64,000 nt of DNA. Origin: Ruania rhizosphaerae (GTDB lineage: Bacteria; Actinomycetota; Actinomycetes; Actinomycetales; Beutenbergiaceae). This document shows, one piece after another, positions 1,865-21,409 of the stretch; the stretch's first letter is position 1; each line of letters starts with the position of its first letter. The notes under the pieces are model-generated. The model had not been told where the DNA came from. It saw only the letters and a program-made list of their open reading frames with translations, and ran no database searches. The DNA lies in contig NZ_VSMB01000011.1 of assembly GCF_009805705.1 (NCBI RefSeq), positions 62,001 through 126,000 on the forward strand. Direction: 5' to 3'. The position numbers were made by a program, and so were the translations under genes.

Positions 1865-3088
1865 TCAGGGCATCGGTGCGTTGAGGTCCGCGGCCCACGC
1901 ACGTATCGCCTCGCGCTCGGATTCGTCGCACACATACCCGTAGCCGATCCAGTAGTCCTCGGTCTCGAGCGTCCATTCGTCATGGTAGGTGAGCGCGTAG
2001 CAGTCGGCCATCTTCTCGCTGCTGCCCTGGAACAGCCCCTGGTCCAGCAGCCGTTCGTAATCGCGGGACCCGTCCATGAATCTCGCGGCATCTGCTCGCT
2101 GGTAGACGTGGGCAAGCTCGTGCACGACCATCATCCGCAGCTCCCACTCGCTGGAGTACTCGCTCTCAGCGAGCAGATGGATGGTCAGCGAATCCCCCCG
2201 GAGCACGCAACCGGTCGTCCTCCACCCGTCCCTGTCAGAGGCTCCGCACACGGACGCAGCGTCCCAGCGGACATCGATGAATCCGTCGCCGGCACCGTCA
2301 ACGAGCTCCTCACTGAGGGAACCGGAACTGTTCACGCTTCGATCTTCGGCCTCGGCAATTAGCTGCTGCAGGTCCTCCCGGCGCCGCTGCGCTTCCTGAG
2401 CGGCTGACTGCGCTGAGAACGCGTTGTTCCCGTCCACTGCGTCTTGCGCCCGTTCCTCGAGTCGTTCGAACCAGACGAGCTCGGTCACCAGCGGTGCGAC
2501 GGGATTACCGTCGAGCTGGGCGGCAAGATCGTAGTACTGCTGGCGCTCCGACTCAAAGATCGCCATCTGCTCGTCCAACTCCGCATTCCCACTGCCACCT
2601 GCGGGTGCCGACGGATCGGCGCCGGTCGGCGTTGCAAGACCCGGGGGGTCTCCAGGATCCGAATGATCCGATGCCAGAAGCGCGCCGGAGCACGAGAAGA
2701 GGGTGATCAGGAGAACGACGGCGGACAGGCAGCCACCGGCCGCGAGACCCCACCCGCGGCCTTGGCGAGGCGGGTGCGGGCCAGCAGGCTGTGGGTACGG
2801 TCCTGGCCGCGGCCAGGGACCCACTCGCTGCGGAGGCGGGCCGACCGGCTGCGGGCCACGAACGGGCGCTGCAGCGGGCCCTGGCTGCGGGCGGACGCTG
2901 CCCTGCCCACGCATGCCACCTGGATTCACCGAGGTCATCCAGTGGCGCAGCGCGGGATAGGCGCGCGGGTTGGCCGCGATCACCGCATGGAGATCCCAGC
3001 GCCGGGCCGCGATGGTGGCTAAGTGTTCAGGAGGAGTCCTCGGATCCCTCGCAATGAGCCACTCATGATCCCCCTGACCACCAACCAC
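1865..3088 (-). CDS. Membrane-anchored HExxH protein with N-terminal variant-leucine-repeat-like domain (paralog A)
   Basis: 407 aa, GTG start. Three parts can be seen: an N-terminal segment of about 50 aa (ending near TSVNPG) that resembles the leucine-rich-repeat-variant domain common in actinobacterial proteins; a Pro/Gly/Gln-rich linker; a transmembrane helix near residues 112-138; then an extracytoplasmic region. That region has HELAH at H323-E324-H327 and a downstream Glu (E358 in SSEKMADC), the layout of a gluzincin zinc peptidase. This suggests a membrane-tethered metalloprotease with its catalytic part outside, but proteolysis is inferred only. The next gene upstream (3214-4422) is a clear paralog with the same order of parts and the same GTG-GTT-GGT-GG start region, which supports this start although no good ribosome-binding site is visible. 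Confidence 0.8.
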   Translation of the reverse strand: MVGGQGDHEWLIARDPRTPPEHLATIAARRWDLHAVIAANPRAYPALRHWMTSVNPGGMRGQGSVRPQPGPAAAPVRGPQPVGPPPQRVGPWPRPGPYPQPAGPHPPRQGRGWGLAAGGCLSAVVLLITLFSCSGALLASDHSDPGDPPGLATPTGADPSAPAGGSGNAELDEQMAIFESERQQYYDLAAQLDGNPVAPLVTELVWFERLEERAQDAVDGNNAFSAQSAAQEAQRRREDLQQLIAEAEDRSVNSSGSLSEELVDGAGDGFIDVRWDAASVCGASDRDGWRTTGCVLRGDSLTIHLLAESEYSSEWELRMMVVHELAHVYQRADAARFMDGSRDYERLLDQGLFQGSSEKMADCYALTYHDEWTLETEDYWIGYGYVCDESEREAIRAWAADLNAPMP

Positions 3089-3213
3089 ACCGACACGTTA
3101 TCCCACGGCGCCCCCTGACCCGCCGTCGGTCGGTCCCCCGCCGCTTCCACAGCGGCAGCGCGCTGATCCAGGACGATCACAACCTCCACCGCCACATCCT
3201 CCGGGGCACCCGA

Positions 3214-4422
3214 TCAGGGCACCGGAGCGTTGAGATCTGCCGCCCACGTGCGGATCGCCTCGCGCTCCGACTCGTCGCACACGTACCCGTAGCCGATCTC
3301 GTAGCCGTTCCCGCCTTCCGGTAGCTCGAGTGTCCATTCGTTGTGATGGGCGAGCGAATAGCAGTCGGCCATCGATTCGAAGCTGCCCTGGAACAGCCCC
3401 TCGTCCAGGAGCCGTTCGTACTCGCTGGACCCGTCCTCGAACCTCGCGGCATCCGCATTCTGGTAGACGTGGGCCAGTTCATGCACGAGGACCATCCGCA
3501 GATGCCGCTCGCTGAAGTATTCGCTGTCAGGCAGCACATGGACGGTGAGCACATCCTCGTCGAGGACGCATCCGAGCGTGATCCAGTTCTCCTGATCAGC
3601 GGGAGCGTCAACGTCCTCGCACGCGGACGCAGCGTCCCAGCGGATATCGATGAAGCCGTTTCCGGCACTGTCGACGATGTCCTCACTGAGGGTGCCTGAA
3701 CTATTGACACGACGATCTTCGGCCGCTGCGACAACGTGCTGCAGATCCTCCCGGTACTGCCGCGCGTCCCGCGCCACGCTCGCAGCAGCGGAAGGGTAGT
3801 CAGCTGACGCCGCTCGTTCCTCGAGAGCTTCGAACAACTCGGGGCGAGTGACCAACGATGCGACGGGATTACCGTCGACCTGGGCGAGAAGCTCGTAGTA
3901 CTGCTCCCGCTCCGACTCATAGATCGCCATGTGCTCGTCCACCTCCGGGTCCCGGCTGGGGCCTGCGGGAGCGGACGGGGACGAGGACTGGAACGCGGAC
4001 GGGGACCGGGACGCGGACGGGTCGCTTCCCGCGCCGGTGGGATCTGGATCGTCCGATGCCAGAAGCGCGCCGGAGCACGAGAAGAGTGCGACCACGAGGA
4101 CGAGAGCGGTGAGGCAGCCTCCGGCCGCGAGCCCCCACGCGGAGCCACGGCGCCGCGGCTGTGGGTACGGTCCGGCGGGCCGCTGCGGGTACGGTCCGGC
4201 GGGCTGCGGTCCCGCAGAGGGGGCAGCGTGCCCTGGCTGCGGCCGCATGCTGCCTGGATTCACCGAAGCGATCCAGTCGCGCAGCGCAGGGTAGGTGCGC
4301 GGGTTGGCGGCGATCACCGGGTGGAGATCCCAGCGCCGGGCCGCGATATCGGCCAACTGCGCAGGCGGGGTCCGCGGATCCCCCGCTATGACCGACTCAT
4401 GATCCCTGTGCCCACCAACCAC
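3214..4422 (-). CDS. Membrane-anchored HExxH protein with N-terminal variant-leucine-repeat-like domain (paralog B)
   Basis: 402 aa from the GTG at 4422, chosen because it aligns exactly with the start of the neighbouring paralog; an in-frame GTG at 4512 would add 30 residues with no counterpart. The architecture matches paralog A: N-terminal repeat-variant domain, Pro/Gln-rich linker, transmembrane helix, low-complexity Ser/Pro linker, then the HELAHVYQ motif (H314, E315, H318) with a downstream Glu in GSFESMADC (E349). Sequence is most alike around the HExxH motif and the C-terminus and least alike in the linkers, as expected after an old tandem duplication. Only 125 bp separate the two genes, so they may share a transcript. 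Function is unproven; a surface zinc metallopeptidase is the best guess. Confidence 0.78.
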   Translation of the reverse strand: MVGGHRDHESVIAGDPRTPPAQLADIAARRWDLHPVIAANPRTYPALRDWIASVNPGSMRPQPGHAAPSAGPQPAGPYPQRPAGPYPQPRRRGSAWGLAAGGCLTALVLVVALFSCSGALLASDDPDPTGAGSDPSASRSPSAFQSSSPSAPAGPSRDPEVDEHMAIYESEREQYYELLAQVDGNPVASLVTRPELFEALEERAASADYPSAAASVARDARQYREDLQHVVAAAEDRRVNSSGTLSEDIVDSAGNGFIDIRWDAASACEDVDAPADQENWITLGCVLDEDVLTVHVLPDSEYFSERHLRMVLVHELAHVYQNADAARFEDGSSEYERLLDEGLFQGSFESMADCYSLAHHNEWTLELPEGGNGYEIGYGYVCDESEREAIRTWAADLNAPVP

Positions 4423-4646
4423 CCGGAAACGGTACCGCGGGAATCGACCTGCTCCGGCGAAGCCAGAGGTGCGTCCCAGCGCTCTCAATGCAGTGCCCGT
4501 ATCCGTCACCACAGCCGGGCCGACAGCATGACTGGCATGGTGAAGGCACCGTGACCGGCGTGCGGGCCGTCGCTATGACCGATCCCACCACCAGTCGGCA
4601 GCTTGAGACTTTGTTCGAACAAGCGACCAGGAGCAATCACCTAGGA
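4423..4646. other. Intergenic stretch without a convincing gene
   Basis: Divergent interval between the HExxH pair and the sugar-transport operon. Apart from a possible 30-codon N-terminal extension of the upstream minus-strand gene (to 4512), I see no coding signal or RNA gene. The regulatory signals of the rightward operon start at 4647. Confidence 0.4.
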
Positions 4647-4840: not shown

Positions 4841-5839
4841 ATGCGCATCGCAGTACTCGGAGCGGGGCGGATCGGTATCGCCCACCTCTCGACCTTGGCC
4901 GCCGTGCCCGGCATCGACGAGCTGATCGTCGCAGACCCCGACAGAGAACGGTCCGTATCGGCGGCGGCAGCGGTCGGGGCGTCCTCGATGTCGATCGACG
5001 AAGCCCTGGCGAGCCGGCCCGACGGCATCGTCATCACGGCACCCACACCAGCGCACCCGGACCTGGTCCGCGCCGGGATCTCAGCCGGGATACCCGTCTT
5101 CTGCGAGAAGCCCCTCGCCCAGGACGTCGCCGGCTCACGTGCGCTCGTCGAGGACTGCGAAGGCAGCGACGTTCCGGTGCAGATCGGATTCCAGCGTCGA
5201 TTCGACGCCGGCTATCGGGCTGCGCGGCAAGCAGTGCGCCGAGGTGACCTCGGAGAGCTGCGCCGGGTTCACCTCATGACGTGCGACCCGGCTCCCCCGT
5301 CAGCGGAGTACATCGCCAGCAGCGGAGGCATCTTTCGGGACTGCCACGTCCACGACTTCGATGTCCTGCGGTGGGTTACCGGGTCCGAGGTTGCCACGGT
5401 CCACGCTGTCGGAGCCAATCGCGGAGCGGACTACTTCCGCGAAGCGCACGACGTAGACGAGTCGGCCGCTCTGCTCACCATGACCGACGGCACCCTCGTG
5501 ACGCTGTCCGGATCGCGGTACAACGGGGCCGGATACGACGTCAGGATGGAGCTGGCTGGCACGGTAGCTACCCTGCTTGTAGGACTGGACGAGCAGTCAC
5601 CCCTGCGGAGTGCTGAGGCACGTGTCCCCTTCCCCGGCGGTGCGCCATACTCGGACTTCCAGCACCGGTTTGCGGCTGCCTATGCCACCGAGCTCGAAGA
5701 ATTCGTGCGCGTCGTCCGCGGCGAGGTCACGAACCCGTGTACGCCGCGCGACGCCCTCTCCGCGCAACTGATCGCCGAGGCGGCACAGACATCCCGACGC
5801 GAGGGGCGCACCGTCGATATGGCTGAACTGAATCTGTGA
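4841..5839 (+). CDS. Gfo/Idh/MocA oxidoreductase, inositol 2-dehydrogenase-like
   Basis: 332 aa; ATG with AGGAGG 6 nt upstream. The N-terminus is a Rossmann NAD(P)-binding fold (VLGAGRIGIAHL), followed by the family EKPLA motif (CEKPLAQDV) carrying the catalytic Lys, and a C-terminal alpha/beta substrate domain with the conserved HDFDVLRW helix (HVHDFD). The family oxidises polyols or sugars such as myo-inositol or scyllo-inositol to ketones. It is the first gene of an operon with a periplasmic-type sugar-binding protein, permease and ATPase, so it probably acts on the imported compound. The exact substrate cannot be read from sequence; inositol or a related cyclitol or sugar is favoured. Confidence 0.88.
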   Translation: MRIAVLGAGRIGIAHLSTLAAVPGIDELIVADPDRERSVSAAAAVGASSMSIDEALASRPDGIVITAPTPAHPDLVRAGISAGIPVFCEKPLAQDVAGSRALVEDCEGSDVPVQIGFQRRFDAGYRAARQAVRRGDLGELRRVHLMTCDPAPPSAEYIASSGGIFRDCHVHDFDVLRWVTGSEVATVHAVGANRGADYFREAHDVDESAALLTMTDGTLVTLSGSRYNGAGYDVRMELAGTVATLLVGLDEQSPLRSAEARVPFPGGAPYSDFQHRFAAAYATELEEFVRVVRGEVTNPCTPRDALSAQLIAEAAQTSRREGRTVDMAELNL

Positions 5840-5841
5840 AA

Positions 5842-5925
5842 CAGCGGGACCGCTGGTAGGGACGGTCCCCGACGACAATCACCACCATGAAGTACAACCA
5901 CCCAACAGGGGCGACCCAACGCCCC
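5842..5925 (+). other. Intercistronic hairpins between dehydrogenase and binding-protein genes
   Basis: Three hairpins can form: CAGCG-GGAC-CGCTG (5842-5855), an alternative GGGACC/GGTCCC stem (5846-5851 with 5864-5869) that excludes the first, and a perfect GGGGCG-ACCCAA-CGCCCC (5908-5925). Hairpins here commonly stabilise the 5' end of binding-protein mRNA and raise its level relative to the flanking genes. No T-tract is present, so complete termination seems unlikely. Confidence 0.4.
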
Positions 5926-5949
5926 ATGTGGATTCCAAAGGAGGAAGCC

Positions 5950-6942
5950 ATGACGAAGAAGATGGTGAAGGCGGGCCTGGCGGCCCTCATCGCTGCACCC
6001 CTGGCCCTGGCTGGCTGCTCGACGGCGTCGGAGGAGCCCACCACAGCCGGAGGCACTGGCGACAGCGGTTCTGGTAGCTCGGGAGGCGAGACGATCGCGG
6101 TCGTCACTCACGGAACCCCGGGCGACGCATTCTGGGACGTGGTCAAGAGTGGTGCCGAGCAGGCTGGTGACGACCTCGGAGTCACTGTGACCTATCAGGG
6201 CGACGGCGACCCCGTGGAGCAGTCGCAACTGATCCAGGCCGCAGTGGCCTCCGACATCGATGGCCTCATCGTGTCCATGTCGAACCCGGATGGCGTTCGC
6301 GGCGCTGTGGAGGAAGCTGTGGCCGCGGGGGTCCCGGTCATCACCATCAACTCCGGTTTGGAGCAGTCCCAGGAGTTCGGTGCCCAGACTCACGTCGGTC
6401 AGAGCGAGTTCATCGCCGGCCAGGGTGCCGGCGAGCAACTGGGCGAGGCCGGGGTCACCAACCTGGTGTGCATCGTCCACGAAGCCGGGAACACCGGGCT
6501 GGAGGATCGGTGTGCCGGTGCAGCCGACACCATGGGGGGCACGGTCTCCAACGTGCAGGTCGACGTCGCCAACGTCGCCGACGCCCAGAACACCATCGAG
6601 TCCCAGCTGCTCTCCGATGACAGCATCGACGGTGTTCTGACCCTGAACCCGGGCATCGCCGTGGCTGCCGCTCAGGCCATCGAGTCCTCCGGATCGACCG
6701 CGCAGCTGGCCACCTTCGACGTCAGCGAGGATGTACTCGAACTCGTCCAGGACGGCGGCATCATCTTCGCCGTCGACCAGCAGCCCTATGCGCAGGGCTA
6801 CGTCCCGGTGAGCCTGCTCACCCTGCAGGCCCGCAACGGCGACGTCGTCGGTGGCGGCCACCCCATCTACTCCGGTCCCGGATTCATCACCCAGGAGAAC
6901 GCCGCTCAGGTGGCCGAGTTCGCCGAGAATGGGACCCGCTAA
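5950..6942 (+). CDS. Sugar ABC transporter substrate-binding lipoprotein
   Basis: 330 aa from the ATG at 5950, which has AAGGAGG 5 nt upstream; an in-frame ATG at 5887 lacks such a site and would place 21 extra residues before the signal peptide. The N-terminus is a lipoprotein signal (Lys-rich start, hydrophobic core, LALAGC lipobox) followed by a Ser/Gly linker. The body fits the ribose/galactose-binding family (Peripla_BP_4), with the typical core VVTHGTPGDAFW near its start. It would capture the sugar outside the cell and deliver it to the permease of the next gene, which starts directly after its TAA stop. Substrate not determined. Confidence 0.92.
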   Translation: MTKKMVKAGLAALIAAPLALAGCSTASEEPTTAGGTGDSGSGSSGGETIAVVTHGTPGDAFWDVVKSGAEQAGDDLGVTVTYQGDGDPVEQSQLIQAAVASDIDGLIVSMSNPDGVRGAVEEAVAAGVPVITINSGLEQSQEFGAQTHVGQSEFIAGQGAGEQLGEAGVTNLVCIVHEAGNTGLEDRCAGAADTMGGTVSNVQVDVANVADAQNTIESQLLSDDSIDGVLTLNPGIAVAAAQAIESSGSTAQLATFDVSEDVLELVQDGGIIFAVDQQPYAQGYVPVSLLTLQARNGDVVGGGHPIYSGPGFITQENAAQVAEFAENGTR

Positions 6943-7983
6943 ATGAGCGCCGCAACCCTGACAGCCGCCGACGAGCGGGTGGTGAGAACAAACCCGCTCG
7001 TCGTGCTGCTCCAACGGCCGGAGATCGGCGCCGCAGTCGCGGCGCTGGCGATCTTCATCCTCTTCTCCAGCCTCACCCAGGCGTTCCTGACACCGGCCGG
7101 AGTCTCGACGTGGCTCTACTCGGCCTCTCTGTACGGGATCATGGCGGTCGCCGTGTCGATGCTGATGATCGGTGGTGAGTTCGACCTCTCGACGGGCGCC
7201 ATGACCGGCACCTCCGGCCTGATGGTCGGAGTGATGGCCACGCACTACGAGATCAACGTATGGCTGGCGGTGACCATCGCGCTGGCCGCCTCGCTCGGAA
7301 TCGGCGCATGGAACGGGTGGATCACGATGAAGACCGGGCTCCCGAGCTTTATCGTGACCCTGTCGACCTTCTTCATTCTGCAGGGCATCAACCTCGCGGT
7401 CACGAAGCTGATCACCGGAACAGTGGCGATCCAAGGCATGTCCGATGTGCCCGGTTTCGAGCAAGTGAAGGTCATCTTCGGATCGGTCATCCGGTTCGGC
7501 GACTTCAGTCTGCGCGCGTCGGTTCTGTGGTGGATCGCGCTGACTGCCGTGGCCACCTGGGTGCTGCTGCGCACTCGCGCGGGCAACTGGGTGTTCGCCG
7601 TCGGGGGGCAGTCTCACTCAGCCCGCCAGGTCGGCGTCCCGGTGGTTCGCACCAAGATCTTCCTGTTCATGGGAACGGCCGGTGCCGGTTGGCTGGTGGG
7701 GATGCTCTCGCTGTTCGACGTCGGCACGGTCCAGGCGACCACCGGTATCGGGCAGGAGTTCATCTACATCATCTGCGCCGTCGTCGGCGGTTGCCTGCTC
7801 ACGGGTGGCTACGGCTCGGCCATCGGCGCAGCGATCGGTGCCCTGATTTACGGCATGGCACTCCAGGGAATCGTCTTCGCGCAGTGGGACAACAATTGGT
7901 TGAAGGCGTTCCTCGGGGCGATGCTGCTGCTGGCCGTCCTGGTCAACCTCTACGTTCGCCGACAGGCAGGAGTCAGGTCATGA
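6943..7983 (+). CDS. Sugar ABC transporter permease (RbsC/FrcC-like)
   Basis: 346 aa, very hydrophobic with about 8-10 membrane helices; member of the BPD_transp_2 family that includes RbsC and FrcC. The motif [10 protein letters not shown] in the first third is the family signature near the cytoplasmic coupling region. The start ATG follows the stop of the binding-protein gene without a gap, and the end overlaps the ATPase gene by 4 bp (ATGA), which implies translational coupling. It would form a homodimeric pore. Confidence 0.92.
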
Positions 7984-8798
7984 GTGAGGACACCGCGCAG
8001 GCCACCGAACTCGACCCCGGCGTGCCGATCCTGGCGATGACGCAGATTGCCAAACACTACGGATCGAGTATTGCGCTGCAGGACGTCGACGCCCATATCC
8101 ACGCCGGCGAGGTCCTGTGCGTGCTGGGCGACAACGGCGCCGGGAAGTCGACGTTCATCAAGATCATCGCAGGAGCGCACCAGCAGACCGAGGGCACGCT
8201 GGCCGTCTACGGCCACAACCGCAGGTTCGCGAGCCCCAGAGATGCCCTCGACGCCGGGATCGCGACCGTCTACCAGGATCTTGCCGTCGTGCCGCTGATG
8301 TCGGTGTGGCGGAACTTCTTCCTGGGTTCGGAGATCACCCGTGGCTGGGGACCGTTCCGGCGCCTCGACGTCGCCGCGATGAAACGGATCGCCAAGGACG
8401 AGCTGAAGAAAATGGGGATCGACCTGCGTGATGTGGACCAGCCGATCGGGACCCTCTCGGGAGGTGAACGACAGTCGGTCGCGATCGCGCGGTCCGTCTA
8501 CTTCGGAGCCAAGCTCGTGATCCTCGACGAGCCGACGTCCGCCCTCGGGGTCAAGCAGGCCGGCGTCGTCCTGCGCTACATCGCTCAGGCCCGCGACGCC
8601 GGACTCGGCGTCATCTTCATCACTCACAACCCCCACCACGCTTATCCCGTCGGTGACCGCTTCCTGATCCTGAACAGGGGCAAGAGTCTCGGTCTGCATG
8701 AGAAGGCTGACATCAGCATCGCGGAGCTGACAGCGCTGATGTCCGGCGGAGCGGAACTCGCAAGCCTCGCTCACGAGCTGGAACGTGCGAGCACCTGA
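7980..8798 (+). CDS. Sugar ABC transporter ATPase, single-domain FrcA-like
   Basis: 272 aa; start ATG overlaps the permease stop (7980-7983). Walker [10 protein letters not shown] at residues 50-58, signature LSGGE, Walker B LVILDEP and the switch His in FITHNP are all present, so it should be active. Unlike RbsA, MglA or XylG, which carry two fused ATPase domains in about 500 aa, this protein has only one; the FrcA subunit of the FrcBCA fructose importer is the known example of this form. Two copies would then energise the permease dimer. Last gene of the operon; a hairpin follows 11 bp after the stop. Confidence 0.9.
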
Positions 8799-12395: not shown

Positions 12396-13772
12396 TCAGC
12401 GAACGGGTGTCTCGGCGTCCGCCCACGCACGGTTCTTCGCCTGGAAGATGCTCAGCTCCTCGGTGAGGGCAGCCAGCTGATCGCTTCGCTCCGCCGAGAC
12501 GTCGGTGGTCTCGGCCGGGTCGGTCGCCAGGTCGTAGAGCGCCTCCACGACCGCCGCCGGCGGGTCCATTCCCTCACGGGCCCCGTGCACGAGCTTGAGG
12601 TCGCCACGCCGCACGGCCCACTGACCCTCATAGGTCCAGTACACCGAACGATCCAGGCCACCAGCACCTGGCGCACCGGCCGCCGTCAGGGCCTCCAGGA
12701 GGGAGACGCCATCGATCGACTCCGCCTCGGTGGGAGTGCCGTCCACGGCGTGCAGCACGGTGGGGAGCACGTCCATCATCATTCCGACCGAATCGAACTC
12801 GGTGCCAGCGGGCAGCCGCGCAGGCCAGGAGATGATGCTGGGCTCGCGCACCCCGCCCTCGAAGACCGATCCCTTGGTGCCGCGCAGACCGCCGGCCCAG
12901 CCGCCGTCGTAGGAGATCTCCTCCCCGTCCAGCCAGTTCCGGCTCTCCGCGGAAGGGCCGTTGTCGGAGGAGAAGAACACCAGCGTGTTCTCCGCCAGCC
13001 CGTGCTCGGTCAGCGCCGCCAGGATCGTTCCGACCGCGTCGTCCATGGCACCCACCATCGCCGCCATCTCCTGGCGTCCCTCGGGCAGGTGGGCGAACCG
13101 GTCCATGTACTCGGCCGGAGCATGCATCGGGTAGTGCGGGGCGTTGAACGGGACGAAACAGAAGAACGGGTCGTCGGCGTGCCGGCCGATGAAGTCCGCG
13201 GCCCGGTCCCCGATTACCGTCGTGAGGTACTCGCCGTTCAGCCAGACCTCCTCGTCGTCGTCCCATAGGTCGTGGATCGGGTTGTGGTCGCCCCAGTAGA
13301 AGATGTGCGAGTAGTAGTCCACGCACCCGGCGCGGATGCCGAAGGTCTCCTCGAAACCGTACTGGCTCGGGCTGTACTCATCCGAGGCGCCCAGGTGCCA
13401 CTTGCCGAACAGTCCGGTCCGATACCCCCGACGGCGCAACTCACTGGCGAGGGTGTCCTGCTGCGGTAGTCCGGGGGTCCGTCGGGTTCCTCCGAGGATC
13501 GCCGGCACACCGGCATGCTCTGGGTACTTTCCCGTGAGCAATGAAGCCCGCGAGGGGGAGCACACCGGGGAATTGGAGTACCACTGGGAGAGTTTGACCC
13601 CCGAGGCGCACAGGGCGTCCAGGGCCGGGGTCTCGAACTCGGCGCCGAAACACCCGAGGTCACCCCAGCCGAGGTCGTCGGCGTAGAGGATGACGATATT
13701 GGGGCGGTCCGGTCGACCCCGGTCACCAGTTCGGTCCATCTGGTCAGTGCTGAACGTGTTGTCGGTTTGCAT
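12396..13772 (-). CDS. Arylsulfatase-type sulfatase without signal peptide
   Basis: 458 aa. Type I sulfatase: metal-binding Asp pair in YADDLGWGD (D32, D33) and the CSPSRA signature with Cys71, the residue that must be converted to formylglycine, then GKWHLG. It would hydrolyse a sulfate ester from a sugar. No signal peptide or lipobox precedes the domain, so the enzyme should stay in the cytoplasm, which is less usual for this family. The start lies 3 bp after the stop of the upstream permease gene, and its ribosome-binding site (AAGGGGTGAGG) is inside the end of that gene, so it is the fourth gene of the binding protein-permease-permease operon. No formylglycine-generating enzyme is in the window. 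Confidence 0.93.
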   Translation of the reverse strand: MQTDNTFSTDQMDRTGDRGRPDRPNIVILYADDLGWGDLGCFGAEFETPALDALCASGVKLSQWYSNSPVCSPSRASLLTGKYPEHAGVPAILGGTRRTPGLPQQDTLASELRRRGYRTGLFGKWHLGASDEYSPSQYGFEETFGIRAGCVDYYSHIFYWGDHNPIHDLWDDDEEVWLNGEYLTTVIGDRAADFIGRHADDPFFCFVPFNAPHYPMHAPAEYMDRFAHLPEGRQEMAAMVGAMDDAVGTILAALTEHGLAENTLVFFSSDNGPSAESRNWLDGEEISYDGGWAGGLRGTKGSVFEGGVREPSIISWPARLPAGTEFDSVGMMMDVLPTVLHAVDGTPTEAESIDGVSLLEALTAAGAPGAGGLDRSVYWTYEGQWAVRRGDLKLVHGAREGMDPPAAVVEALYDLATDPAETTDVSAERSDQLAALTEELSIFQAKNRAWADAETPVR

Positions 13773-13775
13773 ACC

Positions 13776-14675
13776 TCACCCCTTGATAGCGCCAGCAGCG
13801 ACACCGGCGACCAGCCGGCGCTGCAGGAAAGAGAACAGAATGATCGTCGGTGCCGCCGCAATGGTGGACGCCGCCATCACCACGCCCCAGTCGGTGCCGT
13901 ACTCACCGAACAGGCCCGCGAGGCCGACCTGCGCTGTCTTCAGCGAATCGTCGGTGAGAAAGACCTGGGCGAAGAGGAACTCCTCCCACATCGCGATGAA
14001 GGCCGTCACCGAGACGGTCACGATTCCCGGCCAGACCAAGGGGGCGATCACTCGCGCGATCACGGTCAGAGTGGAGGCGCCGTCCATGCGCGCCGCCTCG
14101 TCCAGGGTGCGCGGTACGCCGTTGAAGAACCCGCTCATCAGGAGCACGGCGAGTGGCAGGGTCATAGCGACGTACACCAGCACGATGCCCGGGAAACTGT
14201 TGAGCAGACCGAGCTGCGAGAAGAACAGGTACACCGGGGTGATCAGCACGACGAACGGGAGCAGCTGGGTCGCCACGAGCAGCAGGAACATCGCTCCCCT
14301 GCCCCGGAAGGAGTAGCGCGAGAGGGCGAAGCCGGCCAGGCTGGCGACGATCACGGTGCAGAAGGTGCCGACGAGGCACACCAGGAGCGAGTTCACGATG
14401 TACTGCTCGAAGTTCGTGGCCTCGAACAGCCGCACGAAGGCATCCAGGCTGATGTTGTCCAGGAGGGTCGACCAACTCACGCCCGCGGCGATGTCCTGCA
14501 CCGGACGGAGGGCGCTGTAGACCATCCACAGCACCGGGAAGATGATGGCCAGCAGCACCACGGCGAGCGGCACGAGTAGCACCAGGTCGCTCGCGCGGCG
14601 CGCTGAGCTATCCCGGCGTCGAGCACGGAGCCGGCTGGGCGCAGGTGCAGCCTCCTGCTGGGTCACGGCGCTCAT
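13776..14675 (-). CDS. Carbohydrate ABC transporter permease (MalG-type)
   Basis: 299 aa with about six membrane helices and the EAA-like loop (EAARMDGASTLTVIARVIAPL) that docks the ATPase. Start chosen at the ATG 14675, which has GGAGG 7 nt upstream and overlaps the stop of the previous permease gene by one base (TGATG); a GTG directly before it is an alternative. It pairs with the MalF-type permease to make the channel. No ATPase gene is in the operon, so a shared MsmK/UgpC-type ATPase from elsewhere is expected, as is usual for CUT1 importers of actinomycetes. Confidence 0.92.
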   Translation of the reverse strand: MSAVTQQEAAPAPSRLRARRRDSSARRASDLVLLVPLAVVLLAIIFPVLWMVYSALRPVQDIAAGVSWSTLLDNISLDAFVRLFEATNFEQYIVNSLLVCLVGTFCTVIVASLAGFALSRYSFRGRGAMFLLLVATQLLPFVVLITPVYLFFSQLGLLNSFPGIVLVYVAMTLPLAVLLMSGFFNGVPRTLDEAARMDGASTLTVIARVIAPLVWPGIVTVSVTAFIAMWEEFLFAQVFLTDDSLKTAQVGLAGLFGEYGTDWGVVMAASTIAAAPTIILFSFLQRRLVAGVAAGAIKG

Positions 14676-15577
14676 CACTGGTCCTCCGTTCGGGTCGCGC
14701 GCATGTAGAGGACGGCGAACACCGCCATGATCATCGTCATCACCAGACCGATGGCCGCACCGGCGCCCAGCTTGTTCGCAAAGAACGCCATCGAGTACAG
14801 CTCAGTCGCGAGCACCGCCGTATAGGTTCCCGGTCCGCCACCGGTGGTGAGCCAGACGTAGACGAAGTTGTTGAAGGTCTGGATCACGGTCACCAGTACG
14901 ACGACCGTCAGCACCGGACGCAGATTCGGCACCGTGATGCTGCGGAAGGCGCGGATCCGGCCCGCGCCGTCGAGCGACGCGGCCTCGTACTGCTCGTCGG
15001 GGATCGACTGCAGACCAGCAAGCAACACCATCACCACGAAGGGCAGCTCACGCCAGACGATGATCGCCACGATGCTCCACCACACGGTGCTCGTCTGCGC
15101 GAGGAACGCCACTCCGGACTCGGTGAGCCCGGATCCGACGAGCACCTGGTTGAGCACACCGGAACTGCCGTCCAGGAGCCAGCGCCATGAGGCGATCGCG
15201 ACCACCTGCGGCACCATCCACGGGATGAGCACGAGGGTGCGCGCCAGCCCGCGGACCTTCCACCGGCGCAGTACCGGCGAGTGCAGTGCGACGGCAAGGG
15301 CGAGTCCGAAGACGATGCGCAGCAGCACGGTCAAGGCGGTGAGCCAGAAGACCGTGTTGCGAGCGATCGCCCAGAACTCCGGGTTGCCGAAGACGTACTC
15401 GAAGTTGCCCAGCCCGATCCACTCTCCGTCACCCGGCCCCTGGAAAGGGGAGATCTCCTGCAGCGAGAGGATGACGTTGTAGATCGAGGGGAAGAGGAAC
15501 AGCAAGGCGACGATGACGAGCGCCGGAGCGCTCAACAGGTACGCCTGCAGGGAGGTCCGGCGCGTCGTCATCGTCAC
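14675..15577 (-). CDS. Carbohydrate ABC transporter permease (MalF-type)
   Basis: 300 aa, GTG start (an ATG six bases on is possible). About six membrane helices, with the EAA loop EAASLDGAGRIRAFRSITVPNLRP. It belongs to the CUT1 family (binding-protein-dependent transport inner-membrane component) that imports oligosaccharides and glycosides. It follows the binding-protein gene by 4 bp and is translationally linked to the MalG-type gene. Confidence 0.92.
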   Translation of the reverse strand: MTMTTRRTSLQAYLLSAPALVIVALLFLFPSIYNVILSLQEISPFQGPGDGEWIGLGNFEYVFGNPEFWAIARNTVFWLTALTVLLRIVFGLALAVALHSPVLRRWKVRGLARTLVLIPWMVPQVVAIASWRWLLDGSSGVLNQVLVGSGLTESGVAFLAQTSTVWWSIVAIIVWRELPFVVMVLLAGLQSIPDEQYEAASLDGAGRIRAFRSITVPNLRPVLTVVVLVTVIQTFNNFVYVWLTTGGGPGTYTAVLATELYSMAFFANKLGAGAAIGLVMTMIMAVFAVLYMRATRTEDQ

Positions 15578-15581
15578 CGCC

Positions 15582-16856
15582 TCAGCCCTGCAGCTCGCGC
15601 TCGATAGCGTCGATGATCGCCTGCGCTGCAGTGGCGGAGTCCGACTGGCCGGAGTAGACCGCCGAGAACTGCTGGTTCACCAGCTCCTGCAGGGACGCGA
15701 TGGTGATCGGGGCACCGATGTAGCGGACGAACGGCACCGAATGCGGAAGTTGGTCGACGAATCCCTGTTCGGCCGGATCGACGTCGAGCTGGGTGATCGT
15801 GCTCGCCGACGCCGGGTACTGGTCGTAGGTCTCGAACGTCTCCGCGCTGAGCAGGTACTGCACGACCTGCCACGCCTCGTCCTGATGCTCGGTGTTGGCG
15901 TTGATGCCCAGTGCACGTCCACCGAGGTGGGTCGAGCCATCATCCAGGCCACCCGGCATGGGCGCGGTGAGGAGCTCGGCGTCGACCTGCTCCTGCACCG
16001 CCCGGAAGGCCGCCGGCGGCATGAAGGTCATCGCGCAGGTGCCATCTCCCAGGCCCGCCGCCACGGACGGATCTGCGTAGTCGGTGATCGCCTGCATCGA
16101 CGTCGGGGTGATGCCCTCGGTGAAGAAGGAGTTGAAGTAGTCGATGGCGCCGGCCAGCTGATCCTGGGTGGCACCGACGGACCAGTCGCCTCCGTTGTTC
16201 TCGATCAGCTGGAAGTCGTTGTTCCACATGTAGTAGTTGATCGCGAACCACTGGGCCGCCTGCTGCTGTGCGCCGGCAGCGAAGCAGAAACCGCTCACCT
16301 CACCACCCGAGGAGTCGGTGATCTGGCCCGCCACGTCGAGCATCTCGGGCCAGTCACTCGGAGTCCCGCTCACTCCTGCATCGGCGAGCACGTCCTCCCG
16401 GTAGACCATCGCCATGGTGTCGGCCGTCCACGGGATGGCCCACGTCGTCTCCTCCAGGATGGTCATGTCCGTGGCGAGCAGACTGTCAGCATCCTCCAGC
16501 GGCTGCTCGGTCATCAGCTCGTCCAGCGGGAGCAGGATGTTCGGGTCCGCGAGGAAGGCCGCGTCAGCGAGGGCGATGTGGATCAGGTCCGGTCCCGATC
16601 CGGAGTTGGCCTCGCGAGCGAACTGCTGTGGGTTGTTCGGGGTCACCGTCTCCAGTTCGACCTGGATGTCCGGGTTGTCCGCGTTCCAGGTATCGACGGC
16701 TTGCACCAGTCCCTGGATCTGATCGGCAGGATCGAACTGCCGGAAGGTCAGCCGGACGACTCCGTCGTCCGGCTCCGCCCCTTCCCCACCACACGCGGCG
16801 AGGGTCGCTGCAAGCGCGCCGACTGCTGCGGCGGCGATGTACCGGGATGTCTTCAC
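15582..16856 (-). CDS. Extracellular solute-binding lipoprotein (CUT1 sugar importer)
   Basis: 424 aa from a GTG at 16856 with GGAGAGG 7 nt upstream; a more distal in-frame ATG has no such site. The N-terminus is a short lipoprotein signal with LAAC lipobox. The rest fits family 1 extracellular solute-binding proteins (SBP_bac_1; LTFRQFDPADQIQGLV start, GWPEML-like hinge, GRALGINANTEHQDEAW near the C-terminus). First gene of the transporter-sulfatase operon. Its promoter has a consensus -35 and an element shared with the mannosidase gene, so control by the divergent ROK regulator is likely. Ligand unknown; a sulfated alpha-mannoside is inferred from the operon. Confidence 0.93.
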   Translation of the reverse strand: MKTSRYIAAAAVGALAATLAACGGEGAEPDDGVVRLTFRQFDPADQIQGLVQAVDTWNADNPDIQVELETVTPNNPQQFAREANSGSGPDLIHIALADAAFLADPNILLPLDELMTEQPLEDADSLLATDMTILEETTWAIPWTADTMAMVYREDVLADAGVSGTPSDWPEMLDVAGQITDSSGGEVSGFCFAAGAQQQAAQWFAINYYMWNNDFQLIENNGGDWSVGATQDQLAGAIDYFNSFFTEGITPTSMQAITDYADPSVAAGLGDGTCAMTFMPPAAFRAVQEQVDAELLTAPMPGGLDDGSTHLGGRALGINANTEHQDEAWQVVQYLLSAETFETYDQYPASASTITQLDVDPAEQGFVDQLPHSVPFVRYIGAPITIASLQELVNQQFSAVYSGQSDSATAAQAIIDAIERELQG

Positions 16857-16889
16857 GTGACTGCCTCTCCGTTGATGCATGTGAGCCAC

Positions 16890-16918
16890 AGTTAATTCCA
16901 CCAATTTGAGTTTGTCAA
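16890..16918 (-). promoter_or_regulatory. Promoter of the transporter-sulfatase operon
   Basis: On the minus strand TTGACA (16918-16913), a 17-bp spacer and TTAACT (16895-16890). The start codon of the binding protein is 34 bp further on. The 17-bp shared element described separately occupies almost exactly the spacer and enters the -10 box, so a bound protein would block RNA polymerase. Confidence 0.65.
16893..16909. promoter_or_regulatory. Candidate ROK operator, copy 1
   Basis: TAATTCCA-CCAAT-TTGA. The same TAATTCCA-N5-TTGA word occurs at 18294-18310 before the mannosidase gene. It lies between the divergent ROK regulator and the binding-protein gene, so it may also autoregulate the regulator. 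Confidence 0.6.
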
Positions 16919-16946
16919 CGCGGCATGGCCTGCGTAGCATCACCCC

Positions 16947-18212
16947 ATGCCGAGCCGGACGCCGACGCCCTCCGAGGACGATGCTGCGCCCACAGCACCT
17001 GGCCGCCGCGGCACGAACCTGCCCCGGGTGGCCGACTACAACAAGATGCTGGTCCTGGACCTGATCCGCCGCTCGGCCGGGATCAGCAGGGTTGAACTGG
17101 TCCAGCACACAGGCCTGACGGCACAGACCATGTCGAACATCTGTCGCCGCCTCGGTGACGCCGGGCTGATCAAGGAGTCGGGCCGCATCTACGCCGGCGC
17201 CGGGGCCCCGCGCACGATCTTCGAGGTGGAACCAGGCGGCCTGTACGCACTCGGCCTGCACATCGACCCGGCGTGGCTGACGTCGGTCGTGCTCAACCTC
17301 GCCGGTGAAGTGGTCGGTACGGTCCGCATCCCGACACCGGCCTCGCCGGACCCGACATCGGTGCTCGACGCGATCGAGAGGATGATCCGCTCGCTCATCG
17401 CCGACACCGCGATTCCGGTCGACCGACTGGCCGGACTGGGCGTGGGAACCCCCGGCCCGATCGATATCCGCACCGGCGCCGTGGTCGGCGCGCCCTATCT
17501 GGCGGGCTGGGAACGGGTGCCACTGAAGACGGACTTGGAACGGCGACTCGACCTTCCCGTCACGATCGACAAGGACTCGACGGCGGTCGCCGTCGGGGAG
17601 ATGTGGAATGCAGAGGACGGCACGCGCAACATGGCGTTCGTCTACATCGGCACCGGAATCGCGGCCGGCCTGGTGCTCGACGGCGAGGTGATGCGAGGTT
17701 CCAGCGGCAACATTGGCCACATGAACGCCGATCCGAACGGTCCGATCTGCTTCTGCGGCGGACGGGGGTGCCTGGAGAGCACCATCCTGCCGCGCAACCT
17801 CGTCGGCGAGGCGACGGTGCGTGGCGTTCTGCCCGCGGTCGACATCGGCGACGCTCGCGCCCTGGGCGCCGCGCTGACCGAACTGTGCCGCCTCGCCGAC
17901 TCCGGCCAGACCGACGCAGTGGAGATCGTCGAGCGCGCCGCACGCGGCCTGGGCCGGATCACCGGTCAACTCGCGAACCTGCTCGACCTGGACACGATCG
18001 TCTTCGGCGGACCCCAGTGGGAGCCGTTCGCGCCCACGATCCTACGGATCGTGCCGGACGTCGTGACGCGGATGTTCATCGGTCGGGCGGTGCACCAGGT
18101 CACCGTCCGTGGCACCTCGATCGGTGACCACGTGGGTGCTGTGGGTGCAGCGTCACTGGCGATGTGGTCCAGCACGTTCAACGCACCGACACAGCTGTTC
18201 CTGCCCCGCTGA
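16947..18212 (+). CDS. ROK family transcriptional regulator (XylR/NagC type)
   Basis: 421 aa. A winged helix-turn-helix at about residues 30-80 (VLDLIRRSAGISRVELVQHTGLTAQTMSNICRRL) is followed by a ROK domain. The ROK domain retains the zinc-binding ICFCGGRGCLE motif, but the ATP-binding DxGxT of sugar kinases is replaced (LHIDPAWLTSV), so it should sense a sugar and not phosphorylate it. It is divergent from the transporter-sulfatase operon (90-bp gap) and followed by the GH38 mannosidase gene. The repeated element in both promoters makes this protein the likely local repressor, released by an imported or processed sugar. Confidence 0.92.
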   Translation: MPSRTPTPSEDDAAPTAPGRRGTNLPRVADYNKMLVLDLIRRSAGISRVELVQHTGLTAQTMSNICRRLGDAGLIKESGRIYAGAGAPRTIFEVEPGGLYALGLHIDPAWLTSVVLNLAGEVVGTVRIPTPASPDPTSVLDAIERMIRSLIADTAIPVDRLAGLGVGTPGPIDIRTGAVVGAPYLAGWERVPLKTDLERRLDLPVTIDKDSTAVAVGEMWNAEDGTRNMAFVYIGTGIAAGLVLDGEVMRGSSGNIGHMNADPNGPICFCGGRGCLESTILPRNLVGEATVRGVLPAVDIGDARALGAALTELCRLADSGQTDAVEIVERAARGLGRITGQLANLLDLDTIVFGGPQWEPFAPTILRIVPDVVTRMFIGRAVHQVTVRGTSIGDHVGAVGAASLAMWSSTFNAPTQLFLPR

Positions 18213-18278
18213 GGCCCCCTGCGACTAACCGCACGAGCGATGGGTTCGCGTTGCCTCCGTACGCCCCGACGTCCCGCC

Positions 18279-18307
18279 GTGACACGGTGTACGTAATTCC
18301 ATATGCT
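18279..18307 (+). promoter_or_regulatory. Promoter of the alpha-mannosidase gene
   Basis: GTGACA (18279-18284), 17-bp spacer, TATGCT (18302-18307). The shared element overlaps the end of the spacer and the whole -10 box. Start codon 61 bp downstream. Confidence 0.5.
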
Positions 18308-18310
18308 TGA
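18294..18310. promoter_or_regulatory. Candidate ROK operator, copy 2
   Basis: TAATTCCA-TATGC-TTGA, identical to copy 1 at all 12 fixed positions. It is placed so that a bound repressor would cover the -10 box of the mannosidase promoter. Confidence 0.6.
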
Positions 18311-18367
18311 CTAATTGCCGATCGGAGAACCGATGCCGCGCCGACGCGGTCCGAAGGGACGAGACAG

Positions 18368-21300
18368 ATGACCGAGATTCGCCAGCAGGATGCCGCCACC
18401 CAGACTGTCCGGCGCCTGGACCGCGTGGTCCGCGAGGTGATCCGGCCCGCACGGGTGCGCCAGCGTAGTCCGCTCGCGGTGTCTGCTCGACGGGTCGGTG
18501 GTGAACCTGTCTCCTTCGCCGAGGGCACCCACCATGGAGGTGCTCCACTCGCTGTCGGCGAGGCGTGGGGGCGGGCTTGGGACACCGTCTGGATGCACAT
18601 CAGCGGCGCCGTCCCCAGTGAGTGGGACGCGCGTACCGCAGCCGCCGCCGAGCTCGAGATCGACCTCGGCTTCACCACGGCGCAGTCCGGATTTCAGGCC
18701 GAGGGGCTGGTGTACACCACGGAGGGATCAGTGGTCCGAGCACTCTCCCCACTGAATCACCGCCTACCGCTCCAGGTGGGCCCGGGCGCGGCCGTCGAGT
18801 ACTGGGTCGAGGCGGCCGCCAACCCCACATTGAACAACGCCCACGGCACGAACCTGATCCCGCTCGCCCACCTGGGCAGCTGGGAGAGCGCCGGTGAGGA
18901 GGAGATCTACCGATTCGCCGGTGCGCACCTCGTGGTGCCCGAGGCGGAGGTCGTCGCCCTCGCCCATGACGTAGACCTACTGCGCGGGATCGCGACCCAC
19001 GACGGCACCGACGTGCGCCGTCGCGACCTGATCCTGGCCGCGATCGAGCGGATGCTCGCCGTACTCGACCCCACCGACGTCGCCGGAACCGCCGCCGCAG
19101 CACGCGAGCGGCTCACCGGCGTGCTGACCGTGCCGGCGCACGCCAGCGCCATGACGCTGACCGCCGTCGGTCACGCGCACATCGACTCGGCCTGGCTCTG
19201 GCCGCTGCGCGAGACGATCCGCAAGTGCGCACGCACCTTCTCCAACGTGGTCACCCTGATGGAGGACAATCCGGACTTCGTGTTCGCCTGCTCCTCCGCC
19301 CAGCAGTTCGCCTGGATGAAGGAGCATTACCCCGACTTGTACGAACGGATCCGCGAGGCCGTCGCGCGAGGCCAGTTCGTGCCGGTGGGCGGGATGTGGG
19401 TGGAGTCCGACACGAACATGCCCAGCGGTGAGTCCCTGGTGCGCCAGTTCGTGGCCGGTCAGGGCTTCTTCATGCGCGAGTTCGGCATCGAGTGCCCGGA
19501 GGTGTGGCTGCCGGACAGCTTCGGCTACACCGGCGCGCTGCCGCAGATCGCGCGATCAGCGGGTGCGCGATGGTTCTTCGGGCAGAAGATGTCCTGGAAC
19601 CGGATCAACCGGATGCCGCATCACACCTTCACCTGGGAGGGCATCGACGGCTCCCGCATCCTGACCCACTTCACACCAGTCGACACCTACAACTGCGACC
19701 TCTCCCCCGCCGAGCTCGCCTACGCCCAGCAGAACTTCGCTGATCATGGCCAGTTCTCCGGCGGGCTCGTGCCTTTCGGCTACGGCGACGGTGGGGGCGG
19801 ACCGACGCGGGAGATGCTCGCGGCCGGGCGCCGTGCCGCTGATGTCGAGGGGCTGCCCCGGGTGCAGTTCGGGGCGCCGGCGGAGTTCTTCGCGCAGGCC
19901 GAGGCGCAGGCGCAGGCGCCCGCCACCTGGACCGGGGAGATGTACCTCGAACTCCATCGTGGAACCTACTCCGCCCAGGTCCGGACCAAGCGCGGCAACC
20001 GGCGTGCGGAATCGCTCCTGCGGGAAGCGGAGCTGTGGGCCGCCACCGCGGCAGTCCGGACGGGTGCGCCGTATCCGGCCGATGAGCTCAGGCGAATCTG
20101 GGAACGTACCCTGCTGCTGCAGTTCCACGACATCCTCCCCGGCAGCTCGATCTCCTGGGTGCATGACGACGCCGAACGCATGCATGCCGAGGACGCTGCG
20201 GTGCTCGAGCAGATCATCGAATCCGCGCTCGCGGTACTTACCGGTCCCGGGGACCGGCCGATCGCCGTCAATGGGTCACCGTTTTCCCGCCGTGACCTGC
20301 TGCCCTTCAGCGCCGGCGAACTCGCACCACAGCGCGCAGACGTTGCTCTCGATCGGGTCGGCGACCACCACGTCCTGCGCAGCCCGCACCTGACGTTGCA
20401 CATCGCGGCGGACGGGACTTTTGTCACACTGCACGACCGCGACTCCGACCGGCAGCTGTTCAGCGCGGAACACCCCGGCAACGCGCTGGCGCTCTATCAG
20501 GACATCCCTACGGACTGGGACGCGTGGGACGTGGATGCGCACTACCGCGACCTGGAGATCCCGGCCTCGGGTCCAGTCGATGTCTCGATCGCCGACGACG
20601 GGTCGGCGCAGGTGCTCATCTCACGCGAGTTCGGGTCCTCCCGGGTGAATCAGAGTGTCACGCTGGCGCCTGACCGGCCGGTCGTCGACATCACGACCAC
20701 CGTGCAGTGGCACGAACAGCAACGACTGCTGAAACTGGCGCACCCGTTCCGCATCGATGCACCCACCTCCAGCGCCGAGACGCAGTTCGGTCACGTCCAC
20801 CGCCCGACCCACGTGAACACGTCGTGGGACGAAGCACGATTCGAGGTGGTTGCTCATCGCTGGGTGCACGTCAGCGACGGTGTCGTCGGGGCAGCTGTGG
20901 TGAACGATTCCACCTATGGCCACGACGTCACCCGGTTCCCGGGCGATGAGTCGTCGCCGGGCTATCGGACTCAGGTGCGTCAGACGCTGGTCCGTGGGCC
21001 GCTCTATCCGGACCCGGAGAGCGACCAGGGTGAGCACACCTTCCGCTCACGCCTGGTGATCACGCCCGATGTCGCCGGTGCGGTCGAGGAGGCGTACGAC
21101 CTGGACACACCCATACGGACGGTCACGGGTGGGCGGTTGTCCGTGCCTCCGGTCGCGCAAGTGTTCGGCGATGGCGTGGTACTGCACACAGTCAAGCTGG
21201 CTGAAGACGGGTCCGGGGACGTGATCGTCCGCGCCTACGAGTCGATGGGTCGACCCACGCGTGCCCGGATCGTGGTGGATTCGGCATCAATCCGCCTTGT

Positions 21301-21409
21301 CGACGTGCTCGAGCGCCCACTCGATACCGATCGCGAGGTCGCGGAGAACCAGCGCGAGTTCGACCTTCGCGGCTTCGAACTCATCACCGTGCGTGCCCAA
21401 CCACGCTGA
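18368..21409 (+). CDS. GH38 alpha-mannosidase, cytoplasmic
   Basis: 1013 aa, the usual length for bacterial GH38. Zinc ligands are seen in VGHAHIDSAWLWP (H269, H271, D273), and the catalytic nucleophile is expected at D383 in WLPDSFGYTG. The C-terminal half is the beta-sandwich region of the family (HPFRIDAPTSSAETQFGHVHRPTH and following). The enzyme removes terminal alpha-mannosyl residues with retention of configuration. There is no signal peptide, so it acts on imported substrate. It follows the ROK regulator by 155 bp and has its own promoter with the shared operator. A 7-bp hairpin follows the stop. Confidence 0.95.
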   Translation: MTEIRQQDAATQTVRRLDRVVREVIRPARVRQRSPLAVSARRVGGEPVSFAEGTHHGGAPLAVGEAWGRAWDTVWMHISGAVPSEWDARTAAAAELEIDLGFTTAQSGFQAEGLVYTTEGSVVRALSPLNHRLPLQVGPGAAVEYWVEAAANPTLNNAHGTNLIPLAHLGSWESAGEEEIYRFAGAHLVVPEAEVVALAHDVDLLRGIATHDGTDVRRRDLILAAIERMLAVLDPTDVAGTAAAARERLTGVLTVPAHASAMTLTAVGHAHIDSAWLWPLRETIRKCARTFSNVVTLMEDNPDFVFACSSAQQFAWMKEHYPDLYERIREAVARGQFVPVGGMWVESDTNMPSGESLVRQFVAGQGFFMREFGIECPEVWLPDSFGYTGALPQIARSAGARWFFGQKMSWNRINRMPHHTFTWEGIDGSRILTHFTPVDTYNCDLSPAELAYAQQNFADHGQFSGGLVPFGYGDGGGGPTREMLAAGRRAADVEGLPRVQFGAPAEFFAQAEAQAQAPATWTGEMYLELHRGTYSAQVRTKRGNRRAESLLREAELWAATAAVRTGAPYPADELRRIWERTLLLQFHDILPGSSISWVHDDAERMHAEDAAVLEQIIESALAVLTGPGDRPIAVNGSPFSRRDLLPFSAGELAPQRADVALDRVGDHHVLRSPHLTLHIAADGTFVTLHDRDSDRQLFSAEHPGNALALYQDIPTDWDAWDVDAHYRDLEIPASGPVDVSIADDGSAQVLISREFGSSRVNQSVTLAPDRPVVDITTTVQWHEQQRLLKLAHPFRIDAPTSSAETQFGHVHRPTHVNTSWDEARFEVVAHRWVHVSDGVVGAAVVNDSTYGHDVTRFPGDESSPGYRTQVRQTLVRGPLYPDPESDQGEHTFRSRLVITPDVAGAVEEAYDLDTPIRTVTGGRLSVPPVAQVFGDGVVLHTVKLAEDGSGDVIVRAYESMGRPTRARIVVDSASIRLVDVLERPLDTDREVAENQREFDLRGFELITVRAQPR

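Follow-up and report, generated by a model that had tools for sequence, protein, structure and literature searches.

A sulfatase and a GH38 alpha-mannosidase joined by a predicted ROK operator: a candidate actinobacterial route for the import and cytosolic breakdown of sulfated mannose-containing oligosaccharides

The use of sulfated glycans by bacteria has mostly been described in Bacteroidota, where desulfation takes place outside the cytoplasm and the products can be shared. The locus considered here raises the question of which glycan is handled by an actinobacterial gene set in which a sugar importer, a sulfatase and an alpha-mannosidase stand side by side, and in which compartment the two enzymes act on it. 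It lies in a window of 64,000 nucleotides, namely positions 62001-126000 of contig C2 of a 4.43-Mb, high-GC genome (G000) from the same order as Brachybacterium, and consists of the following features.

12396..13772, minus strand: 458-aa S1 sulfatase (FGly-type) without signal peptide, encoded by the last gene of the operon (PF00884, E 2.4e-54)
13776..14675, minus strand: CUT1 permease of the MalG/UgpE type (PF00528), with orthologues in congeners, Brachybacterium, Microbacterium and Streptomyces
14675..15571, minus strand: CUT1 permease of the MalF/UgpA type (PF00528), with a possible GTG start at 15577
15582..16856, minus strand: solute-binding lipoprotein (SBP), GTG start, lipobox LAAC (PF01547, SBP_bac_1, E 8.2e-32)
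16947..18212, plus strand: ROK-family transcriptional regulator (PF00480, E 2.4e-47, and MarR/HTH), zinc motif CFCGGRGCLE
18368..21409, plus strand: GH38 alpha-mannosidase, 1013 aa, no signal peptide (PF01074, E 9.9e-94; PF07748, PF09261, PF17677)
16893..16909, minus strand: predicted ROK operator 1, TCAAATTGGTGGAATTA, in the spacer and -10 of the SBP promoter
18294..18310, minus strand: predicted ROK operator 2, TCAAGCATATGGAATTA, which extends over the -10 of a promoter-like site (18279-18307) upstream of GH38

The first-pass annotation had described a tight operon of SBP, two CUT1 permeases and sulfatase, with a divergent ROK gene followed by GH38, and coordinates, Pfam domains and spacing all agree with that description. 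The SBP gene starts at GTG 16856 and is separated from the first permease gene by 4 bp or 10 bp, according to whether the latter is read from its GTG or its ATG start; the permease genes overlap by 1-4 bp, 3 bp lie between permease and sulfatase, and 155 bp between ROK and GH38. The importer consists of an SBP_bac_1 lipoprotein and two BPD_transp_1 permeases, with no ATPase gene within the cassette, and the regulator has an N-terminal winged HTH ahead of a ROK domain with its zinc motif. Taken singly, the proteins are ordinary members of their families, and it is the combination, its regulation and its spread that are new. Elsewhere in the window, an inositol-dehydrogenase-like gene is followed by an apparent CUT2-type sugar importer with binding protein, permease and ATPase (4841-8798), and two tandem paralogues with proline-rich N-termini and a HELAHVYQ metallopeptidase-like motif adjoin a tRNA-Leu gene (1865-4512).

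The sulfatase combines the sulfatase fold, the CxPxR signature and the metal- and sulfate-binding residues of family S1. It is of the Cys-type (CSPSR at C71), with D32, D33, R75, K124, H126, H213, D270, N271 and K300 invariant across 21 orthologues, and a maturation enzyme, an FGE with the CHDSYC motif, is encoded on contig C6 of the same genome, whereas the sulfatase of Bifidobacterium breve is matured by a radical SAM enzyme. Its closest solved structure is PsS1_19B (6PRM/6PSM), an exo-4S-kappa-carrageenan sulfatase of about 32% identity, which has the same fold and catalytic residues but acts on carrageenan; carrageenan or GalNAc are the substrates of the nearest solved sulfatases. In the GH38 enzyme, the zinc ligands and the catalytic Asp (H271, D273, D383 and H587) are present by motif, and the best structure match, over almost the full length, is PDB 7ufs, named as an alpha-mannosidase (E 6.9e-205). 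The structures 7UFR-7UFU are Bifidobacterium alpha-mannosidases that degrade N-glycans, and we know of no sulfated substrate for them. That both enzymes lack a leader, as noted at first reading, was borne out: no signal peptide was found on the window sulfatase or GH38, and sulfatase orthologues of other genera begin with MTxxRPNIV..., mostly 2-9 residues before the first beta-strand, so that the leaderless sulfatase is not a start-codon artefact. The structure models were set aside as a source for the ligand, since the SBP model is poor (pLDDT 66.8; sulfatase 73.9, moderate) and fold searches matched it to many sugar SBPs.

The alpha-mannosidase gene shares a regulatory motif with the operon. 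A 17-bp sequence, TCAAnnnnnTGGAWTWA, emerged when the SBP/ROK spacer and the region upstream of GH38 were compared among relatives. The 4.4-Mb genome has exactly two copies of it, one in the SBP/ROK promoter region (16893-16909) and one in the GH38 promoter (18294-18310); the SBP promoter itself reads TTGACA-17-TTAACT, with the -35 at 16918-16913 and the -10 at 16895-16890. At one mismatch, 0.03 matches are expected in the window by chance and two were found. Two copies are also present in each of the congeners G015 and G017, one exact and one degenerate copy in G019, and none in the four congeners that have no cassette; a reversed-motif control gave zero. Both sites are found at the corresponding positions in Microbacterium barkeri and M. 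oryzae, whose gene order is the same, some of them with 1-2 mismatches, and operator 2 is conserved in these two species as well as in G015 and G017. Since the motif is unique to both promoters and absent from the cassette-less congeners, membership of GH38 in the ROK regulon is very probable; ROK binding at both operators is what we infer from their position and conservation. The MocA oxidoreductase and the DUF4862 protein, initially suggested as proteins that could process the released sugar, were dropped as pathway steps: their domains were confirmed with Pfam, but no operator stands in front of either gene, and both adjoin the cassette only within the genus, incompletely even there, and are missing from it elsewhere. 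In G019, a second CUT1-ROK cassette (L040:11284-15762) is inserted between the sulfatase operon and DUF4862/MocA.

Four of the 24 family genomes, all from congeners, have both the sulfatase and the SBP orthologue; the other 20 have neither, and SBP orthologues are confined to cassette-bearing genomes. The GH38 orthologue (81-91%) is found in the same four congeners, and GH38 paralogues (~50%) are common (20 of the 24). A wider search of genome contigs found 467 sulfatase relatives in one scan, and among the 80 kept, the set ROK-SBP-permeases-sulfatase was complete or nearly so in about ten actinobacterial genera. GH38 adjoins ROK in two Microbacterium species, immediately follows the sulfatase in Streptomyces, Actinoallomurus, Amycolatopsis, Arthrobacter (A. 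castelli) and Paractinoplanes, and lies nearby in Pseudonocardia kunmingensis; no linked GH38 was seen in Labedella, Pseudonocardia sp. MH-G8 or Actinopolymorpha pittospori. Thus the co-occurrence of CUT1 genes, sulfatase and GH38 in relatives, suggested by the first-pass annotation as a check, was found across genera, and this recurrence makes the arrangement more than chance. Brachybacterium retains ROK-SBP-permeases-sulfatase with no GH38 nearby, and a GH38 search of strain G278 came up empty at E 1e-20; importer and sulfatase can therefore be of use in the absence of GH38. Each of six Brachybacterium genomes carries a single copy of the operator, and the idea of a GH38 within the ROK regulon of that genus was dropped for this reason. 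At four Brachybacterium loci (L054, L058, L060, L051) the sulfatase gene stands alone or with a permease remnant, and the cassette seems to be decaying in several species.

Further evidence on the substrate comes from the neighbours that the sulfatase clade has acquired. In seven other Microbacterium loci (L082, L085-L090), the sulfatase orthologue shares an operon with a GH5_18 beta-mannosidase (PDB 7LR7, E 1.6e-150) and a second sulfatase like N-acetylglucosamine-6-sulfatase 5G2V, accompanied by CUT1 genes and GH38; both sulfatases are leaderless, and a leader-bearing EndoS-type ENGase, GH20 and a fucosidase (GH29) adjoin where annotated (L082, L085). This is an N-glycan locus with two sulfatases, suggesting the use of sulfated N-glycans. 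In Paenibacillus contaminans, P. doosanensis, P. oceani and P. ginsengarvi, the order is permeases-SBP-sulfatase-GH38-GH125-second sulfatase, with a GH38 of another type; a GH42-like gene is also present in the row, and these loci (L105, L119, L120, L129) look like a second type of sulfated-mannoside locus. The sulfatases linked to these differing alpha-mannosidases form one clade in the tree. Monophyly of the linked GH38s is rejected (AU p 8e-29), so that alpha-mannosidases joined the sulfatase clade more than once; this non-monophyly is clear only for the set including the Microbacterium type, independent recruitment being not significant for the window type versus the Streptomyces type alone (p 0.11). 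The strongest case for a sulfated alpha-mannoside, the substrate that had been proposed from the outset, is that one sulfatase clade has repeatedly been paired with different alpha-mannosidases; that substrate stays a proposal, now favoured by the linkage to several alpha-mannosidase lineages and N-glycan enzymes. Mannose-6-sulfate occurs both in N-glycans (PMC8379841) and in diatom alpha-1,3-mannan (PMC13063451). In the source genome, no EndoS-type ENGase (PF23916) was found, so nothing found here releases N-glycans, and a GH5_18 homologue (48% identity) is present but unlinked to the cassette, within which GH38 lies. The organism may therefore depend on fragments made by others or by other enzymes of its own.

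The cassette stands in a genome rich in sulfatase genes, with about 25 Pfam matches in 4.4 Mb (loci L014-L027). All 22 sulfatases with a readable N-terminus are of the Cys-type, and no hydrophobic leader appears in any of them, nor does one when the frame is extended back to the preceding stop codon; the sulfatome is apparently all-cytosolic. A CUT1 permease pair lies no more than five genes away at 14 of the 22 sulfatase genes outside the window (two of which are contig-end fragments), and GH38 is beside none of these 22 in the neighbourhoods examined. The two fragments at contig ends (L017:1-612 and L027:9306-9995) are very similar, which makes it probable that the assembly is interrupted by repeats in sulfatase regions. 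On contig C11, two apparently identical sets of CUT1 permease pair and lipoprotein flank a sulfatase gene (L014:607-3813 and 13993-17199), reflecting either a recent duplication or an assembly effect.

Parts of the arrangement are known from other systems. The Streptococcus pneumoniae N-glycan pathway (EndoD, NgtS-P1-P2, SpGH92, SpGH38, SpGH125) likewise uses SBP-dependent ABC import of mannose-rich fragments and cytosolic demannosylation, by GH38 and GH125, and a ROK protein co-occurs at its locus, annotated as a putative sugar kinase; however, the described locus is without a sulfatase, and its glycan is released by EndoD, an activity for which the window genome offers no EndoS-type candidate (PMC5215778). 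As summarised in PMC7326374, citing Egan et al., the sulfatase clusters of Bifidobacterium breve UCC2003 also provide an intracellular sulfatase for an imported sulfated sugar, obtained by cross-feeding, but the substrate is the monosaccharide GlcNAc-6-sulfate and that summary reports no alpha-mannosidase. The earlier statement that most known systems desulfate outside the cytoplasm fits the Bacteroidota, although cytoplasmic sulfatases have a precedent in B. breve, going by the same summary (PMC7326374). The sulfated alpha-1,3-mannan PUL of Polaribacter and O. pacifica resembles the present module in its sulfatase and alpha-mannosidase chemistry, but employs extracellular and periplasmic enzymes of families S1_51, GH195, GH92 and S1_11 (PMC13063451). 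The window sulfatase is leaderless and matches the S1_51 structure 9FVT weakly (E 1.4e-15), and the module is not a member of this Bacteroidota PUL type. In its working, the module resembles the pneumococcal pathway supplemented by a cytosolic desulfation step of the B. breve kind, and it arrives at the chemistry of the sulfated-mannan PUL with other enzyme families and in another compartment. Among the papers searched, none joined a sulfatase with GH38, GH125 and an ABC transporter, or any four or more of these and sulfated N-glycans.

The best explanation, which we regard as reasonably probable, is regulated import of a sulfated, mannose-containing oligosaccharide followed by its desulfation and demannosylation in the cytosol. 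A sugar-responsive ROK repressor would control one operon and one monocistronic gene by means of an operator present in two copies, and when substrate is lacking it would block the SBP promoter, probably its own promoter, and that of GH38. The oligosaccharide would be produced outside by other enzymes or organisms, captured by the lipoprotein and imported unaltered through the two CUT1 permeases, presumably powered by a shared ATPase whose gene lies elsewhere. Within the cytosol, the S1 sulfatase, matured by the FGE, would take off a sulfate ester, and GH38 the alpha-mannose, before or after desulfation; the likeliest natural ligands would be fragments of sulfated high-mannose N-glycans or of sulfated alpha-mannans. 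The scheme of ROK-controlled import with intracellular desulfation and demannosylation, put forward in the first-pass annotation, is strengthened by the operator common to the GH38 and ROK/SBP promoters and by the co-occurrence across genera.

Other explanations account for parts of the same evidence. The core might import and desulfate a small sulfated sugar other than an alpha-mannoside, with GH38 added to the regulon at the level of the genus for a glycan that occurs alongside, as the Brachybacterium core without GH38, the one strain without any GH38 and the galactose-type substrates of the nearest solved sulfatases would allow; yet the window GH38 has the same ROK operator, different alpha-mannosidase lineages adjoin the sulfatase clade repeatedly in two phyla, and none of the genome's 22 other sulfatase genes has GH38 in the neighbourhood examined, which leaves this explanation unlikely, although it retains some weight. 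Alternatively, any sulfated sugar ester could be imported mainly for its sulfur, in keeping with some 22 leaderless sulfatases in the genome, many of them beside importers. ROK control with a predicted operator at the alpha-mannosidase gene points instead to carbon use, and no sulfate assimilation gene was seen adjoining the cassette, so that sulfur scavenging appears quite improbable as the main role.

The identity of the enzyme and the membership of GH38 can be questioned as well. Sulfatases and phosphonate or phosphodiester hydrolases have a common fold and the CxPxR signature, and Phosphodiest (PF01663) is the weak second Pfam match of the window protein, so it could be an FGly enzyme that cleaves phosphodiesters or phosphomonoesters in fragments of phosphomannan; this is very unlikely, however, as carbohydrate sulfatases are the best matches by sequence and by fold, and the 60 best sequence matches include no phosphonate monoester hydrolase. 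It is hardly credible that GH38 is a chance neighbour and the module only an importer with a sulfatase: the abundance of GH38 paralogues in the family and the 155 bp behind ROK would permit it, but the two operators have no further copy in the genome and are conserved, and the positional linkage recurs in other genera.

The preferred reading, import of a sulfated mannose-containing oligosaccharide for cytosolic breakdown, can be extended, as a tentative suggestion, to the whole sulfatase clade, which may be specialised for desulfating sulfated mannose, or a sulfated sugar of the N-glycan core, in the cytosol, as part of a Gram-positive pathway of Actinomycetota and Paenibacillus that takes up sulfated high-mannose glycans intact, the window organism being a specialist whose whole sulfatome is cytosolic behind CUT1 importers. 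To our knowledge, such a specificity has not been described for relatives of this clade. If true, this would assign a class of substrates to a sulfatase clade for which a single scan turned up 467 relatives, and would supply enzymes for the analysis of sulfated N-glycans or mannans. Import with the sulfate still on would be a Gram-positive 'selfish' strategy, and predicts sulfate-tolerant binding proteins. Judging from the related sets in other actinobacteria and Paenibacillus, such bacteria may share a widespread and so far undescribed way of feeding on sulfated mannose glycans.
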